Shown in pieces: positions 9,152 through 24,900 of a DNA stretch of 64,000 nt; position 1 is the stretch's first letter; each line of letters opens with the position of its first letter. The position numbers and the translations under genes are program-made. Source of the stretch: an uncultured beta proteobacterium (GTDB lineage Bacteria; Pseudomonadota; Gammaproteobacteria; Burkholderiales; SG8-39); assembly GCA_903859155.1 (NCBI GenBank), contig CAIOLO010000032.1, positions 62,001 to 126,000 on the forward strand. Direction: 5' to 3'. A model generated the notes under the pieces. It saw nothing but the letters and a program-made list of their open reading frames with translations, ran no database searches and had not been told where the DNA came from.

Positions 9152-10600
9152 TCAGCGGCGTCGCTTGTGCGCGACTTTGCGCGGCGCTTTGGACTGCTGC
9201 TGCGATACCGCGATCGCTTCGCCGGTCTTGCCTTCGAGCTTGGGCACGATATTGTCGGTGATCCATTTCTGGTCCCACCACTCCACCGGCAAAACGGCCA
9301 CCCCGCTCAAATACACGCCATAGTGGAGATGATCTCCGGCGGCCAGGCCGGTCTCACCGGTATTGCCGACAATCTGCCTTTGCTTGATCGGCTCGCCCAC
9401 CTTGACGTTGATGGAACTCAAGTGGCCATAAAGCGAAAACAACCCCAGGCCGTGATCCAGGATGACGGCATTGCCGTAAATACCCAGATCGCCGGCGAAG
9501 GCGACCGCGCCGCTGTTGGCGGCTTCGACCGGATAGTGCTTGGTGACCGACAGGTCATAGCCCAGATGAAAGGCGGTGTCGATCAGCTCGTTGTCGTAGG
9601 TATAGGTCCGCTCATCCGCAAAATTGGCCTCGACTTTGGAGTTGCTCAGTTGGCTGAAGGCGCCGCTCCACAGTATCGACGGCGTGGATCTCCTCGTGAT
9701 CGACACGATCTTGTCTTCGTTTTCCTTCCTGAGTCCCTTGTTGATCCGGATGAAAATTTCCTTTGGCGTGCCCTGCCGCGCATCCACGTCGCTTAACAAG
9801 GGAGCGATTTTCTGCAGGAAATTGTCAGACAGCGCGATGGTGCTCTTCTTGTATTTAACGTTTTTGAGTTCGTAGACGAGCGGCATTTCCCGGGTATTGC
9901 CGGCTTTGTCGGTTGCAACAAGCACGGCTTTGACGTCTGCCGGCACGTTGTAGGGATGGGCAAACAGGGCGACGAAGTGATCCGGATGCTCCTTTATCTG
10001 CCCCTGGAAGCCCGGAAAGTAATAACCGCCGATTCGGATGCCGCTGGTTTTCGTATCCGCCGAGGATTTGTAAACGACCACGCCGACACCGCCGAAGTTG
10101 ACGTAGCGGTCATCGGCGATCAACTCGACGGTCGGCGCAGTGATGTCGATGGTCAGGTTTTTCTGCACCACAGTCTCGTTGCCATGGAAAGAATTCCACC
10201 ACGAGCCATCCTTCGCGCTGATGCGCAGGACCGCGGGTCCCTCGCTGACGTGCAGAACCGCGGGTCCTTCCTTGAGCCCGGACAGTTTGGACGACAAGGC
10301 GACGATGATTTTCTTCTCCGCCACCGGCTGGGCGTACTGCTCGGAGGCCAGCGTGTGCTCGGTGCCGCCGGCCGAGAGCGTTGCAGTGACCGACTTCAAA
10401 CCGACGCCACCATCAGTGACAGCAATCTCCACGGGGCCCAGGCCAAGCGCGTCGGAGTCCGGGGTGAGCGTGATCTGCGGCGCCTCCCGCTCGAACAGCG
10501 GCCACAGGTAGTACGCACCACCCAGAAGGCCGATAACGATCATCAGCAAAGTTATCGCCGGGATACTTCTCCTGCGTCGGTCGGAATCCAAAGTGCTCAT
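9152..10600 (-). CDS. M23 (LytM) family metallopeptidase, membrane-anchored
   Basis: A 482-residue envelope protein. A transmembrane helix (about 14-36, ITLLMIVIGLLGGAYYLW) anchors a large periplasmic region with beta-rich, Ig-like composition. The C-terminal M23 domain spans about 345-440. Zinc ligands are visible as HLGYD (His345, Asp349) and HLHYG (His424, His426), so it should be an active peptidoglycan endopeptidase. The last 15 residues are Lys/Arg-rich. It converges with the SDR gene and has no catabolic link. Confidence 0.9.
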   Translation of the reverse strand: MSTLDSDRRRRSIPAITLLMIVIGLLGGAYYLWPLFEREAPQITLTPDSDALGLGPVEIAVTDGGVGLKSVTATLSAGGTEHTLASEQYAQPVAEKKIIVALSSKLSGLKEGPAVLHVSEGPAVLRISAKDGSWWNSFHGNETVVQKNLTIDITAPTVELIADDRYVNFGGVGVVVYKSSADTKTSGIRIGGYYFPGFQGQIKEHPDHFVALFAHPYNVPADVKAVLVATDKAGNTREMPLVYELKNVKYKKSTIALSDNFLQKIAPLLSDVDARQGTPKEIFIRINKGLRKENEDKIVSITRRSTPSILWSGAFSQLSNSKVEANFADERTYTYDNELIDTAFHLGYDLSVTKHYPVEAANSGAVAFAGDLGIYGNAVILDHGLGLFSLYGHLSSINVKVGEPIKQRQIVGNTGETGLAAGDHLHYGVYLSGVAVLPVEWWDQKWITDNIVPKLEGKTGEAIAVSQQQSKAPRKVAHKRRR

Positions 10601-10798: not shown

Positions 10799-11911
10799 TC
10801 ATTGATCTGCGCTGGCGACGCAATTTCGTCCGTTGCGCTTGGCGGCATAGACACCCCGGTCCGCAGCCTTCATCAGATCCTCCAACGCCTTCATCGCCTC
10901 GGTGCGCACAGCAACGCCGATGCTGATGCTGCCGCGCCACTCACCGGCCCCGGCAGTAACGCGAAGTGCAGCGACATCCTTGCGTATCGCCTCGGCCAGC
11001 CTCATCGCGCCCTCCAGTGGAGTGCGGGCGCAAATGATAAGGAACTCGTCGCCGCCCAGCCGGCAGACGGTGTCGTCTGTGCGCAACGATTCCTTCAGCT
11101 GCCTGGCTAAAGTGCGCAGCACCGCATCCCCGGCGTCATGACCATGGGTGTCGTTGATCCGCTTGAATCCGTCGGCATCGACCATCATGCAGGCAAGCGG
11201 CGTTCCGTCGCGCGCGGCGGCATCCCAATCCATGGCAAATCGGTAAAGCGCGTAACGGCGGTTGGGCAAGCCGGTCAGGGTATCGGTGCTGGCGAGATCC
11301 TCCAGTCGCTGATTGACATCAGTGAGGGCCTGGGTGCGTTCGGTCACACGCGCTTCCAGCGTTTTGTTCAATTGCACCAGTTCCCGATTACGCTCCGATA
11401 CCTGGTGAAACAATCCGTTCAGCGCCGCCAGCAGCGTATCGGTGGCGATGTCCCTGGAAATCGCCCCTTCCAAATAAGCGACCCCGGGCGCGCAGCCGGC
11501 CTGGATCGAGGCGATCTGTCTGGCCATGGACTGGTCAACCCCGAGAATGTGGTGTGCCAACCAGTGCGTCAGGAACTGCAGAAGTGACTTCGCCGCACCG
11601 CGATTATTTTCGCAGACGCTGCCGTGCAGTTGTGTCACCTCGTCGAGAAAGCTGCGATGGCACTGTCGATGCTGTTCGATATAGCGCGGGTCCAGGCGCA
11701 TCGTCTTCATCAAGGTCTCTTCCTCGGCAAAGTGATACCTGGAGTAGTCGGCAAGTTCGACAAATACCGCTTCCAACTCCGGCGTGGATACGCCCTCCTG
11801 CCCCATGACCAGAGCGCCAAACCGGTTGATGAGATTCACCAGACGGTGGTGCTGCTCATCGACATCTTTCAATCCGGTCAGATAGCAGCTATTCCACTGA
11901 AACGCGTCCAT
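10799..11911 (-). CDS. Bacteriohemerythrin-GGDEF fusion, predicted diguanylate cyclase
   Basis: A 370-residue soluble sensor. Residues 1-135 are a bacteriohemerythrin domain with the di-iron ligand pattern: His in DEQHH (21/22), YHFAEEE (His60, Glu64), EQHRQCH (81/85), HWLAHH (116-121) and Asp126. A helical linker follows, then a GGDEF domain with an intact GGDEF motif at 286-290. Expected role: c-di-GMP synthesis controlled by oxygen or redox state. ATG 11911 has GAGGTG upstream; the GTG at 11938 has no site. The flanks offer no partner gene. Confidence 0.93.
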   Translation of the reverse strand: MDAFQWNSCYLTGLKDVDEQHHRLVNLINRFGALVMGQEGVSTPELEAVFVELADYSRYHFAEEETLMKTMRLDPRYIEQHRQCHRSFLDEVTQLHGSVCENNRGAAKSLLQFLTHWLAHHILGVDQSMARQIASIQAGCAPGVAYLEGAISRDIATDTLLAALNGLFHQVSERNRELVQLNKTLEARVTERTQALTDVNQRLEDLASTDTLTGLPNRRYALYRFAMDWDAAARDGTPLACMMVDADGFKRINDTHGHDAGDAVLRTLARQLKESLRTDDTVCRLGGDEFLIICARTPLEGAMRLAEAIRKDVAALRVTAGAGEWRGSISIGVAVRTEAMKALEDLMKAADRGVYAAKRNGRNCVASADQ

Positions 11912-12092
11912 GCTTTTCACCTCGTAATCGGCCGGCACTGCTTTGCGCCTCCCCAGGTCAAGGACCGGGGCATTGCCGGAAAACGACGTCTTGAGAACTC
12001 ATGGCCGCGAGCGGCTGGCGCAGGGCAAGCGGCCAAGGAGCAGGCGTCTCCTCGCCGTTTGCGCCCTCCGGGCGCTATAACCCACCGGCGAG

Positions 12093-14295: not shown

Positions 14296-16059
14296 TCATT
14301 TGCCGTTATTCGTTGCCGACCCCGCGCGCTGCGCCCACCAGCGCCGCAGGTGCTCGCTCACCGGCGCAGCCTGACGGATCTGCGGATATGAAAACTCGGG
14401 GGCGCCGCCTTTCTTCGCCTCGCGAAAATCGCGCAGTTCCCATTCGCGCACCAGCGCATCGGCCTTCCTGAATGCCTCCTCGAATGATCCGCTCGAGGGC
14501 AGCGACTCCTTGAAATAGGCGCGACCGAAGTAGGTGAAGTCACGATCATCCTCGCAGCCGAAAGACGGCCGATCCTGGCGCGCCGCGGCAATCACCAGGG
14601 TGTGTTCATCCTTGAGGGGCTCGATGAAGCCGCCCGCATAGCAGGCCGATATGACGACCACCTTCCAGACAATTCCCGACTCCCGCAGCAGTTCACCGAG
14701 ATCTCGCGCCGGCAGGCTGCGCAGGCCCATGTTGTTCTGGCTGAGCAGCAACTCATGCTCGCGGGAGCCGTGGCTGGTGAGGAACAGGAACAGAATGTCC
14801 TGCTCACGATCCATTTTTGCCGCAATCGCCTTGAGCGATTCGCGAATGCTGGTGATCGTGGCCATGGGCATCTGCGTGACCGTGGTGCGGCTGTTGACCA
14901 GCGCCAGCGAGCGGTTGCGCGTGCCGAATCCGCTGTCGAACTGATCGCGGACAAATGCCGCCTCGCGGCGGAACACCTCCTGGCTGCCGTCGCCGCCCAC
15001 AGCCAGCATGTACATGTTGATGCGCCCCGGATCGCGCGGCGCCAGGCTGCCGAGCGCGCGCTCAAGAATCGATTGCTGCGAATACAGCGCGAGTTCCACA
15101 TTGCGCATCGCCAGTTGTCGCGCCGCCTCGTCCTCGAACCTGCCCTCGCGCCAGATGCCCCGGTCTTCGCTGCGGCCGTCGTCGCGCGGCCTGGCGTAGC
15201 TGAGCACGCCCTCCCCCTCGTACTGGCCGTTGGCAAAGCCGCCGCTGTACTCGTCGCCATTGGCCAGGCGCAGGCTGCCCTTGCCATGAAAGCGCCAGGC
15301 CTTGAACTCGCCTTCGTAGGCGAAACCGGTTTTGCCGCGCAGGCGGCCGCGGCCGTTCAATTCGCCGTTGCTGTAATTCCCCTCGAAGACATTGCCCTCG
15401 GCATCGGTAAAGGTGCCCGGACCGTTGCTGCGCCAGCGCAAGAAGCGGCCCTCGTGAAAAGAGCCATCCGCTCGCGTATAGATGCCCTTGCCGGTGAAAT
15501 CCCCGTCGACGAACCCTCCCTCGAAGCTCTCCCCCTCGCCGGTTTCCAGGCGGCCTTCGCCCGAGAAATGTCCCTTGGCGAATTCGCCACGGTACTTGCG
15601 CCCGTCCTTGTAGGTCAGCGTGCCGCGACCGTGGTATTCGCCGTTTTCGAAGTCGCCCTGATAGACATCGCCGTTGGCCAGTTCGAGGCGGCCACGGCCG
15701 TGAAACAGGTCGCGTTTGAAATCGCCCGCGTAGACCGCCCCGTCGCGCGTCTCCAGGCGGCCCAGGCCGTCCATGACGCCATTGCGGAATTCGCCTTCGT
15801 AGATATCGCCGTTGCGATAGCGCATCACGCCCTGGCCTGATATCAGGCCTTCGTTCAACTCACCCTGGTAGCGCGCGCCGTTGCTCCATTCGATGCGGCC
15901 CTTGCCATGCAGCTTGCCGTCCCTGAGCGTGCCGAAATAGCGCCCACCGTCGGAGGTCAAGGCATCCGGCCGAATCTCCTGCGCGCCAACCAGGACCGGC
16001 CAGGCAACCCACAGCGCCGCCAGCGCCGCGACGCATCGCAGGCGAACGCTTACCCGCAT
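14296..16059 (-). CDS. Secreted MORN-repeat protein with C13 (legumain/caspase-fold) protease domain
   Basis: A 587-residue protein. Signal peptide about 1-27 (cleavage near VGAQ-E). Residues 41-293 hold eleven consecutive 23-residue MORN repeats (pattern YxGxFxxGxxHGxGxLxxxNG). The C-terminal part, about 340-560, carries TSHGS (His430) and ISACYAGG (Cys473), the dyad arrangement of peptidase family C13. Both catalytic residues are present. ATG 16059 has GGGAG ten bases upstream. It begins 4 bp after the end of the decarboxylase-like gene, hence likely translational coupling. MORN repeats often bind membranes or lipids, and here the location would be periplasmic. The target is unknown. Confidence 0.88.
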   Translation of the reverse strand: MRVSVRLRCVAALAALWVAWPVLVGAQEIRPDALTSDGGRYFGTLRDGKLHGKGRIEWSNGARYQGELNEGLISGQGVMRYRNGDIYEGEFRNGVMDGLGRLETRDGAVYAGDFKRDLFHGRGRLELANGDVYQGDFENGEYHGRGTLTYKDGRKYRGEFAKGHFSGEGRLETGEGESFEGGFVDGDFTGKGIYTRADGSFHEGRFLRWRSNGPGTFTDAEGNVFEGNYSNGELNGRGRLRGKTGFAYEGEFKAWRFHGKGSLRLANGDEYSGGFANGQYEGEGVLSYARPRDDGRSEDRGIWREGRFEDEAARQLAMRNVELALYSQQSILERALGSLAPRDPGRINMYMLAVGGDGSQEVFRREAAFVRDQFDSGFGTRNRSLALVNSRTTVTQMPMATITSIRESLKAIAAKMDREQDILFLFLTSHGSREHELLLSQNNMGLRSLPARDLGELLRESGIVWKVVVISACYAGGFIEPLKDEHTLVIAAARQDRPSFGCEDDRDFTYFGRAYFKESLPSSGSFEEAFRKADALVREWELRDFREAKKGGAPEFSYPQIRQAAPVSEHLRRWWAQRAGSATNNGK

Positions 16060-16063
16060 GAAC

Positions 16064-17041
16064 TCAGTCTCCCACTGGCACGAACAGCGATTCAATCGCC
16101 GGCGCCCTGGCAATCAGCCCCTGCTCGGCCATATAGTCGACCAGCGCCTGCAGCGTCTTGCGGTTGCCCTCGATGCCATAAGGCCAGTAATCGTCGCCGA
16201 ACACTTCGTTGATTTCGGCCACGTCGCACGACAGCCACGGCAGCATGTAGCGCAGCGTGCCGGCACGCAGGCGGTCGATGGCGCGCTTTTTGGACGCGTT
16301 GAACGCATCGAACAGGCTCTTGGCGATAAACGGATGCTCCTCGTGCAACGCGCGGCGTATCACCACCAGGTGCATGATCGGGAAGATGCCGGTGCGATGG
16401 TAGTAATCTTTCTCGATGCTGCGATAGTCCGGAAACAGGCGCCGGATGCGCGGGTTGTGGCGCATTGAATGCGGAATCGCCGTGCCGATCATGGCGTCGA
16501 TCTCGCCCTGGTCGATCAGGTCGCTGAGCGAACGCCCGGCCGGATCGGTCGATACGCGCGCCGGCCGCACCATCGGCACGACCGAAGGCTCGCCGTGGTT
16601 GCCGGCGTGATTGGCCGCGCCCTGCACCCAATCGATGGTGGACAGGTCCACGCCATAGTCGTGCTGCAGATGCCCGCGCTGCCACACTGCGGCGGTCATC
16701 GTATACAGGGGCACACCGATGCGCCTGCCCTCGAAATCCTTCGGAGACTGAATTCCCGAGTCGAGGTTGAAACTCATGAAGCCGTGCCGGAACATGCGCG
16801 AGGGAAACACCGGAATCGCCACCAGAGGGCAGTTGCCGGCGCACAGGTGGCTGATGTACTCAGAACTCGACATCTCGGCGACGTCAAATTCCTGGCGCGC
16901 GCCCATGCGGTCGAAAATATCGCGCACCGAATCCATGGCGACATATTTGAGGTCGATGCCCTCGGGCTCGACTTCGCCCGTATAGAGGGAAAGCATGCGG
17001 TCGTAGAGACCGCTGGCAAAGGTCACCGGAATTTTTGTCAT
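16064..17041 (-). CDS. 4,5-dihydroxyphthalate decarboxylase-like / substrate-binding-fold protein
   Basis: A 325-residue protein without a signal peptide, of the periplasmic-binding fold group that includes 4,5-dihydroxyphthalate decarboxylase (Pht5). Conserved-looking segments are EMSSSEYISH, IPVFPSRMFRHG, RIGVPLYTMTAAVWQRG and TGIFPIMHLVVIR. Absence of export and position among catabolic enzymes favour a cytoplasmic decarboxylase over an ABC receptor. ATG 17041 is the start; the ten residues before it look non-native. It lies 90 bp after the ThDP gene and 4 bp before the MORN-C13 gene. Confidence 0.72.
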   Translation of the reverse strand: MTKIPVTFASGLYDRMLSLYTGEVEPEGIDLKYVAMDSVRDIFDRMGARQEFDVAEMSSSEYISHLCAGNCPLVAIPVFPSRMFRHGFMSFNLDSGIQSPKDFEGRRIGVPLYTMTAAVWQRGHLQHDYGVDLSTIDWVQGAANHAGNHGEPSVVPMVRPARVSTDPAGRSLSDLIDQGEIDAMIGTAIPHSMRHNPRIRRLFPDYRSIEKDYYHRTGIFPIMHLVVIRRALHEEHPFIAKSLFDAFNASKKRAIDRLRAGTLRYMLPWLSCDVAEINEVFGDDYWPYGIEGNRKTLQALVDYMAEQGLIARAPAIESLFVPVGD

Positions 17042-21911: not shown

Positions 21912-24900
21912 ATGGGAACAAAGAGCGGACCGCAGCCCCCCACTGATAGCGAGGGTGCCTTGGCCGGCCCATCGCGGGCGCTGCGCGAGCGGGCTGAAGC
22001 GGTTTCCCAGAAAAGCGCCGCGCAGTTGAGTGAAAACATCGCGGCTCTCTCTTCCGAAGCAACGCGACTGTTGCTGCTCGATCTGCGCGTGCACCAGATC
22101 GAGCTGGATCTGCAAAACGAGGATCTGCGCCGCTCGCAACTGGAACTTGATGCTGAGCGCTCGCGCTATTTCGATCTCTACGAACTGGCGCCGGTGGGCT
22201 ATTGCAGCATGAGTGCAAAAGGGCTGATCCTGAAAGCCAACCTCGCCGCCACCAGCATGCTGGGCGTGGTCCGAGTCAACCTGGTGGGACAGCCGATATC
22301 GCGCTTCATCCGCAGCGAAGACCAGGACGTTTTCTACAGAAATCGCAAGCTGCTTCTTGAGTCGGGCAAGCCCCAGACGTTCGAGTTGCAGATGGTCAAG
22401 CACGATGGCACGCTGTTCTGGGCGCATCTGCAAGCCAACGCGAGCCCGGTCGCCGACGGCCCGCCAGAACTGCGTTTCGTTCTGATCGACATCACCGAGC
22501 GCAAACATCTGGAACTGGCCCTGACTCAGCAGCGGCATCTGCTCCAAAGCCTGGTCAACAACCTGTCCTTCGGCCTGGTCCTGTACGACAGGAAGCGTCA
22601 AATGCTTGTCTCCAACGACAACTTTCGCACCATCCTGGGCCTCCCCGCGGAATTGTTGCAACAGCCGAACCTTCGTTTTGACGATGTCATTCGCTTTAAT
22701 TTCGACCGCGGCGACTACCCGGAACAAAGCTTCGAAGCGGTCTTGCGTGGTTTTGTCGACATGATCGAGGCTCGCCGACCGGTCAGTTTTGAACGTTCTC
22801 AGCAGGACGGATCGTGGCTGGGGATTCAAGGAACGCCTCTTGCCGACGGCGGCACCCTGCTCACCTATTCAAACATCACCGAGCGCAAGGCGGCTGAATC
22901 GAGGTTGGTCGTCGCCAATACGGAACTGGTATTTCAGAACGAAGAGAAAGGCAAGCGCTCGGCGGAGCTGGTCACCGCCAATGAAGAACTCGCCCGGCGC
23001 ACTGAGGAACTGCACACGCATCAGATCGAACTGGAGACGCAAAACGCAAATCTGCGCCACTCGCAACTGGAACTGGAAACCGTGCAGGCGCGCTATTTCA
23101 ACCTGTACGAGCTCGCGCCGGTGGGCTATTTAACCGTCGGCAAAAATGGGCTGATCCTGCAAGTCAATCTTGCCGTCACCACCCTGATGGATGCGCCGCG
23201 CGGCAAACTAATCGGACAGCCGATCAGCCGGTTTATCCTCAAGGAATACCAGGAGGTCTTCTACCTGCACAACAAGCAGATTCTCGAATCCGACGAGCCG
23301 AAGACGTTCGAGTTGCGCATGGTGAAGCGCGATGGCACGCTGTTTTGGGCGCACCTGGCGAGCACCTTTGCGCGGGGCGACGATGGCGCCTCCGAACTGC
23401 GAATCGCGCTGAGCGACATCACCGCGCGCAAACAAGCTGAGCAAGCACAGGCAAGACTTTCGGCGATTGTGGAGTCCTCCAATGAGGCCATCATCAGCCG
23501 CACGCTTGACGGGACGGTTCTGACCTGGAATGCCGGTGCGCAAATGATGTTCCGATACAGCGCGGCGGAAATGGTCGGCAAGTCGATCAACATAACTGTT
23601 CCGTCGGAATACCACTCTCTCATGCCAAAAATCAATGATGCGCTGTTGCGGGGCGAGACAGTCCATAGAGAGTCCCAACGAATTACCAAGGACGGAGAGG
23701 TGTTTGATGTCTTTGGCAGCCATTCCCCGATCAAAGATGCATCGGGAAATGTCGTCGCCGTGTCAGTTATTTTCCAGGACATCACCGCACGCAAGGCGGC
23801 CGAGGCTGCGGTGCGCAAGCTCGCGCGCGCGGTAGACCAGAGTCCGGCATCGGTCGTAATCACCAACCTGGCCGGCAACATCGAGTACGTGAACCCCAGG
23901 TTTGAGAACATAACCGGCTACTCAAGCGCCGAGGTGCTCGGCGCCAACCCCCGTATCCTCAAGTCGGGCCGCACGTCGGCCGAGACCTACCGCGAAATGT
24001 GGCGGGTGATTTCCGCCGGGGGCGAGTGGCGCGGCGAGTTGTGCAACCGCAGAAAGGATGGTGAACTGCTATGGGAAAGCGCCTCCATCTCGGGGCTCAA
24101 GGACGAGCGCGGCAAGGTCACTCATTACGTCGCCGTCAAGGAAGATATCGGCGAACGCAAACACGCAGCCGAAACCTTGCGGCAGGCGCGACAGCGCGAG
24201 ATCGAGATCGGCTCCAGCATCCAGCGCACTTTGCTGCTGGGCGAAGTCCCCAAAGAAATTGAGGGTGCGTGGCTGGCCGCGTATGCCGATGCATCGCAGG
24301 TCATCGACGGCGATTTCTACGCCCTGCGCCAATACCGCCCGGGCTGCTTTGAAGTGCTGGTGGGCGACGTCATGGGCAAGGGCGTGCCGGCGGCGCTGAT
24401 GGGTGCCGGGATTATGACCACCTACAGCCGCGTGATTGCCGATCTACTTGCTCCGCGAACTGACGAGGAGCGTGCGCTGCCCACGCCGGCCCAGATCGTG
24501 AACGCCATACATCAGGCGCTGACGCCGCAACTGATCGCGCTTTCCTCGTTCGCCACGCTTGCCCTGTACCGCTTCGACCTGGATGCGGGGATCCTCACTT
24601 ACGTAAACGCCGGGCACACCCCCGGACTGCTCGCGCGCGGCCTTGATGCGCGCCCTGTAGCCATCCAGGGCGACAATCTGCCTATCGGGGTCATGCTCGA
24701 GGAGAACTACGTCCAGTTCAGCCTCGCGGTCGGTCCGGGCGACAGCCTGCTGGTATTCTCCGATGGCATCACCGAGGGACGCAACGCCGCGGGCGAGGAG
24801 TTCGGTCTGGCGCGTTTGTATGGCCTGCTCGAGCCTGGCAACATGGCGGACCTGCCCCCTGCCACCGTGTTGCATGCCCTGCGCGGGGAACAGCGGCGTT

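Follow-up and report, generated by a model that had tools for sequence, protein, structure and literature searches.

Organization of the MORN-C13 locus

The window analysed here, a stretch of 64,000 nucleotides from an uncultured beta proteobacterium, carries on its minus strand, at positions 14296–16059, a gene for a protein of 587 amino acids. The protein is made up of an export signal, eleven MORN repeats, a linker helix and a C13 peptidase domain, and is referred to below as the MORN-C13 protein. The original prediction had placed the gene at the right coordinates and did not name the strand; read on the plus strand, the same interval contains stops. The upstream neighbour (16064–17041), likewise on the minus strand, is separated from the gene by 4 bases, the gap that had been described before, and an amidohydrolase gene lies 117 bases beyond the 3' end. 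Two other minus-strand genes of the window encode a Peptidase M23 protein, membrane-anchored as judged by eye (9152–10600), and a hemerythrin-GGDEF protein (10799–11938).

Relatives were collected by a scan of genome contigs, which gave at least 524 relatives among at least 591 pattern matches, and the best 80 were kept. A complete frame was present at 76 of the 80 loci; L061, L071, L082 and L113 were without one in the frame that was followed. Loci L037 and L045 are apparently the same contig, as are L034 and L040, and each pair should be counted once. From the 76 complete-frame relatives, 52 were chosen at under 82% identity. Alignment A2 contains 51 of these and the window protein (L040 was left out for its runs of N), and alignment A3 contains 34 of the 52 together with the window protein.

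MORN repeats

The repeat region covers residues 37–289 (15193–15951, minus strand) and was delimited by Pfam, by an AlphaFold2 model and by a structural match to MORN1. It matches the Pfam MORN family at E 2.3e-38 and consists of eleven consecutive, gapless units of 23 residues in which 55 of 55 key positions are matched, bearing out the eleven clean repeats noted earlier. Shuffling the stretch 2000 times gave a maximum of 21 and a mean of 11.6 matched key positions, where the score refers to a single fixed register and to key positions taken from the repeat itself. Residues 290–312, the would-be twelfth unit, depart from the pattern. Since the Pfam matches to MORN and to Peptidase_C13 are both far above their cut-offs, chance is no concern.

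MORN1 is a cytoskeletal protein of parasites. It resembles the window protein in the repeat fold, with 32–34% identity over 201–210 residues, and differs from it in having no protease domain. In excerpts of the study by Sajko et al. (PMC7725318), MORN1 of T. brucei is described as interacting with individual phospholipids, and MORN repeats are recast as protein-protein modules. The original prediction had taken MORN repeats to be, as a rule, membrane or lipid binders, a view that is weakened by the argument, in these excerpts, that they are modules for protein contacts and not membrane binders.

The same genome contains two more MORN-repeat matches, near each other (G000:C103:20910-21164 and 22455-22715), in open frames of 251 and 209 amino acids.

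The C13 domain and its predicted catalytic dyad

The caspase-fold domain at about residues 349–584 (14308–15015, minus strand) was identified by Pfam, by a domain profile, by the model and by structural matches. Residues 416–548 match Peptidase_C13 at E 7.5e-25, scoring 88.4 bits where the family cut-off is 22.8, which places the protein in this family. Compared with solved structures, the domain profile gave E 2.6e-11 for legumain and 0.079 for metacaspase-4. A phmmer search with the full protein, run to an E-value of 1, gave 30 sequences; every one matched the MORN region and none was a C13 enzyme, and the legumain match required the domain profile. The family of EACC1-associated caspases (NCBIfam NF047832) scored 30.9 bits, below its 140-bit cut-off. 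A role as an anti-phage defence protein was considered and rejected, with 0 PADLOC families matched at E 0.01.

The predicted catalytic residues are His430 (14770–14772, minus strand), in a TSHGS motif, and Cys473 (14641–14643, minus strand), in a SACYAG motif. Both are kept in all 76 complete-frame relatives from the best 80 of at least 524, and so are Asp421, Gly431, Ser471, Ala472, Tyr474, Ser499 and Cys502. One of the two scan patterns, ACY[AGS]GGFI, surrounds the catalytic cysteine, and loci found through it necessarily keep that residue; the histidine is in neither pattern. Thus, the intact dyad that had been predicted extends to near and distant homologues among these best-scoring relatives, and its loss, which would have spoken against the prediction, was not seen in the close ones. 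All 52 members of A2 match both Peptidase_C13 and MORN; four of them have an additional match to Peptidase_C14, and one to CHAT.

This pattern of conservation bears on the idea that the protein is a non-enzymatic scaffold, in which the MORN sheet does the work and the C13 domain serves as a binding module. Such a scaffold would fit the description of MORN repeats as protein-protein modules in the excerpts of PMC7725318, and every member of A2 has the repeat region, which is long. However, the dyad and the residues around it are invariant in the 76 relatives (best 80 of at least 524), a constancy that would be superfluous in a binding module, whereas the number of MORN-like motifs among the same relatives varies from 5 to 11 in a loose count. 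We consider the scaffold improbable and prefer a cysteine peptidase that uses the conserved dyad.

Predicted structure

The AlphaFold2 model, built on a 52-sequence alignment, has a mean pLDDT of 93.7. Its pTM is lower, at 0.64, which suggests uncertainty in how the MORN and C13 halves are placed relative to each other. Low pLDDT values are found in the first three ten-residue blocks. The N-terminal half of the model is a single row of beta hairpins, such that the eleven tandem units lie in one sheet, and the structural match for this half, obtained with VIA-align, is T. brucei MORN1 (Z 22.0, rmsd 2.4, 210 residues). A helix at residues 311–337 (15049–15129, minus strand), assigned by DSSP on the model, links the sheet to the peptidase domain.

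Residues 346–581 of the model match human legumain (Z 21.1, rmsd 2.7, 206 residues), Arabidopsis metacaspase 4 (Z 20.6, rmsd 2.7, 209 residues), the K chain of human GPI-transamidase (Z 19.7, rmsd 3.6, 214 residues) and peptide asparaginyl ligases (Z about 19–20). With Z values within one unit counted as tied, the fold by itself does not tell legumain from metacaspase, whereas the sequence profile favours legumain, given the E-values of 2.6e-11 and 0.079. Strands 422–428 and 465–471 end just ahead of His430 and Cys473, as expected for a dyad carried by core strands. The model thus supports the predicted caspase-type fold close to legumain, with metacaspase 4 tied.

The same structural matches raise the possibility that the protein is a transpeptidase and not a hydrolase, which would cut a sorting signal and join the protein to an amine of the envelope while the MORN repeats hold the acceptor or a partner. 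The GPI-transamidase K chain and the peptide asparaginyl ligases belong to the same fold group, and an exported location would suit such a reaction, but the legumain hydrolases score equally or slightly better and the fold does not separate hydrolases from ligases. In our view a transpeptidase is unlikely. That MORN-C13 proteins are a bacterial counterpart of GPI transamidase, envelope transpeptidases that cut a sorting signal, couple proteins to an envelope amine and are positioned by MORN repeats as a docking arm, we regard as very unlikely.

Substrate pocket in comparison with legumain

For the C13 peptidase, positions were compared in the profile alignment with Cys189 of legumain, which we take to be the reference point for the numbering. 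The S1 pocket of legumain uses Arg44, His45, Ser216 and Asp231 according to excerpts of PMC4357240. Ser216 aligns with Ser499, which is invariant in the 76 relatives (best 80 of at least 524), and Asp231 aligns with Arg513, so that only the first of these two S1 residues is retained in the window protein. Position 513 is Arg in 44, Lys in 4, Glu in 18 and Asp in 10 of these 76 relatives, again from the best 80 of at least 524. Arg365 (75/76) and Glu366 (76/76) lie in a likely helix whose register to Arg44 and His45 of legumain is not fixed by the alignment, and the residue after the catalytic cysteine is Tyr in all 76 (best 80 of at least 524).

Because Asp231 aligns with Arg513, the asparagine preference of legumain is not transferable to the window protein, whose cleavage preference, judged from the aligned residues, probably differs. 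The ten relatives with Asp at position 513 imply that specificity may vary within the family. Overall, the window protein shares with legumain (asparaginyl endopeptidase) the fold, the dyad and the serine at the place of Ser216, and differs in Arg513, in the Tyr after the cysteine, in stopping at the end of the domain where legumain has a C-terminal prodomain, and in the MORN arm at its N-terminus. Neither a substrate nor an enzymatic assay of a MORN-C13 peptidase is reported in the open-licence literature that was searched.

Export signal and location

The N-terminus of the window protein, about residues 1–27 (15979–16059, minus strand), is hydrophobic and followed by VGA-QE; this assignment as an export signal rests on the translation as read by eye, a hydrophobicity script and the low pLDDT of the region. 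Among the window protein and its 76 relatives (best 80 of at least 524), the N-terminus was classified as lipobox-like in 35 of 77 and as hydrophobic in 42 of 77, with none in neither class, by a simple and lenient script run without a control set; the lipobox of L091 is doubtful. Inspection by eye indicated that members from Pseudomonas mostly carry L-x-A-C-G and that some from marine gammaproteobacteria look membrane-anchored. Varied export signals on a common body point to a working place outside the inner membrane. Most likely, then, the MORN-C13 protein is exported, in line with the signal peptide that had been predicted; it would act in the periplasm, and its Pseudomonas counterparts would act as lipoproteins.

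Distribution and relation to MORN-free C13 peptidases

The same architecture of MORN repeats plus C13 was found in Pseudomonas, Stutzerimonas, Oxalobacteraceae, Rhodocyclales and marine gammaproteobacteria. A search among betaproteobacteria, which the original prediction had called for, thus recovered the architecture there and beyond. The window protein is a member of an existing, little-studied family annotated as peptidase C13 in public records. Searches of open-licence papers by title, combining MORN with C13, legumain or caspase, gave no title on the fusion.

In a family sample around Pseudomonas ovata (the genome of L092), a match was present in 44 of 79 genomes, 43 of which read as C13 with MORN; the remaining one, G259, shows no more than a weak match to MORN. 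Around the genome of the window, 30 of 61 genomes were matched in the protein search, five of which (G000, which is the window's own genome, G001, G002, G023 and G043) read as full MORN-C13. In the class-wide sample a match was found in 26 of 185 genomes, with MORN plus C13 in G000, G095, G096, G103 and G180. Five of the 43 MORN-C13 genomes of the Pseudomonas-family sample have one TGA inside the match, and in 13 genomes of that sample (including G254, G257, G263, G279 and G286) the match is in two pieces; the break is in or near the MORN part, which suggests fewer or altered repeats.

In the genome of the window, a second C13 gene is located on a different contig (L001/L038, G000:C74:35327-36085); it is MORN-free and encodes several hydrophobic segments upstream of the domain. 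The ORF that comes after it shows EF-hand-like motifs, as seen by eye. MORN-free membrane C13 peptidases of proteobacteria share with the window protein the C13 core and the SACYSG-like and SFGC motifs. In contrast to it, 19 of 19 lack a MORN-like motif and 18 of 19 have several hydrophobic segments before the domain, the exception being the fragment L024. More than one such segment was seen in 1 of 78 MORN-type frames, which extend upstream of the true start.

A tree was built from 37 MORN-type domains (the window protein and 36 of its 76 relatives) and 18 MORN-free ones, the fragment L024 having been dropped from the 19. The MORN-type domains form one group that holds 37 of 37 rows (support 100/99), and the 18 MORN-free domains, which include the Acinetobacter C13 protein L120, are separate. 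The tree was rooted at the midpoint and describes the separation of the two kinds, not which of them is ancestral.

Three metagenome contigs, L045 (titled Klebsiella pneumoniae), L061 (Bordetella parapertussis) and L067 (Pedobacter), carry copies 48–55% identical to that of the window. Some of these titles look wrong, as L045 and, weakly, L067 fall among betaproteobacteria in the tree; L061 is not in the tree. Viral spread was considered and rejected: of 128 pattern matches in viral contigs, none was a relative by tblastn.

Gene neighbourhood

The upstream gene at 16064–17041 had been described as decarboxylase-like. It gave only matches below the cut-off, mainly to substrate-binding proteins (among them the NMT1/THI5 and phosphonate-binding families), which it weakly resembles; a decarboxylase function is possible. 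The gene stands in a same-strand row with genes for a TPP enzyme, a TctC protein and a GMC oxidoreductase.

Neighbours were compared by searching 84 loci (L033–L036 and L040–L119) with six neighbours from the window and seven from P. aeruginosa; contig ends shorten many of these loci, and the absence of a neighbour there carries little weight. In the genus, represented by L035 and by the single contig behind L034 and L040, the upstream gene, the TPP enzyme, the GMC oxidoreductase and the amidohydrolase are kept. The first three were each found at 3 of 84 loci, all in the genus (L034, L035 and L040), so the upstream gene is outside the conserved unit. TctC at high identity was found only in L034/L040. 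Of the P. aeruginosa neighbours, the oxidoreductase gene was matched at 35 of the 84 loci and maoC at 34; these are the loci of Pseudomonas and Stutzerimonas. At eight further loci, inspected by eye as unannotated ORFs, there was no neighbour common across families; L036 and L042 each have, several genes off, an ORF whose sequence is similar in the two.

More distant likenesses were also observed. TctC relatives of 34–39% identity occur in L045, L047, L061 and L091, in L047 directly downstream on the same strand, and L091 has a DapA relative of 26% identity. Two gammaproteobacterial metagenome loci have an Amidohydro_2 (Pfam) gene directly upstream (L075, 3303–4274; L080, 1313–2305), about 25% identical to the amidohydrolase of the window, which adjoins the MORN-C13 gene downstream. 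The TctC and amidohydrolase families are common in such genomes, and single neighbours may be due to chance. A loose link of MORN-C13 genes to amidohydrolases might nevertheless exist.

These data bear on the alternative that the gene is part of a catabolic operon, whose transporter or substrate-binding proteins the peptidase would process or sense. The 4-base gap, the row retained in the two other genomes of the genus, and the neighbours in L075, L080 and L047 argue for it. Against it, the upstream gene is matched at three of the 84 loci, of which two are the same contig; the 35 Pseudomonas and Stutzerimonas loci have the oxidoreductase gene instead, with maoC in 34; and the lone TctC and amidohydrolase neighbours may be accidental. 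We therefore judge an operon function quite unlikely. The catabolic setting seen originally is real in the window and in two other genomes of the genus but does not hold for Pseudomonas and, as far as these data show, it is particular to one genus. Scattered neighbours of this kind give no pathway.

A possible role in the cell envelope

A counterpart of known surroundings is WIK44125.1 of P. aeruginosa, which like the window protein combines MORN with C13, at about 40% identity and with the dyad kept. It differs in having a lipoprotein-type signal (by eye) where the window protein has a cleavable one, and in its neighbours, which in CP109682.1 follow the order maoC, peptidase C13, oxidoreductase, YceK-like lipoprotein, ubiX and mpl. 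Since mpl is PA4020 (excerpt of PMC10187892) and the UbiX homologue is PA4019 (excerpt of PMC3650080), the C13 gene falls on PA4016 when the order is counted backwards, and we infer from gene order, not from a sequence match, that WIK44125.1 is PA4016. According to excerpts of PMC3406104, a PA4016 insertion in a delta-exoU strain attenuated the killing of C. elegans; no attenuation was seen with another allele in the wild-type background, and PA4016 was eliminated from the list. PA4016 is also entered in an envelope proteomics table for strains with MFS-pump plasmids, with values of 0.19 and <0.05 that we take as ratios (excerpt of PMC7835679).

Taken together, we find it reasonably probable that the MORN-C13 protein is an exported cysteine peptidase of clan CD, family C13, which serves envelope upkeep and has the MORN repeats as a docking or dimerisation arm. 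A Sec-type signal would carry the protein across the inner membrane. The eleven MORN hairpins, which form one long beta sheet in the model, may dock protein partners or dimerise, by analogy with MORN1. The caspase-fold domain could then cut, and possibly transpeptidate, envelope proteins by means of His430 and Cys473, a dyad and fold that are in place for such an activity. The role would be one of envelope upkeep or stress response rather than of catabolism. Surveillance of the envelope or processing of surface proteins, as suggested in the original prediction, would also be plausible. A cysteine peptidase so widespread in Pseudomonas and betaproteobacteria bears on the question of legumain-type proteolysis in the bacterial envelope.

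Reports on abrp, an Acinetobacter gene described as belonging to the peptidase C13 family, point to an envelope role for the MORN-free sister kind but conflict on its direction. Its deletion is reported to have increased membrane permeability (excerpts of PMC10203620, PMC5346588 and PMC8768575); one review excerpt describes the knockout as more susceptible to antibiotics than the wild type, whereas in another the deletion conferred reduced susceptibility. The evidence from Acinetobacter is indirect for the window protein, because L120 belongs to the MORN-free sister group and abrp is linked to L120 by name, not by sequence. In A. baumannii, a peptidase C13 gene is a transcriptomic predictor of early exposure to polymyxin, as stated in an excerpt of PMC4872528.
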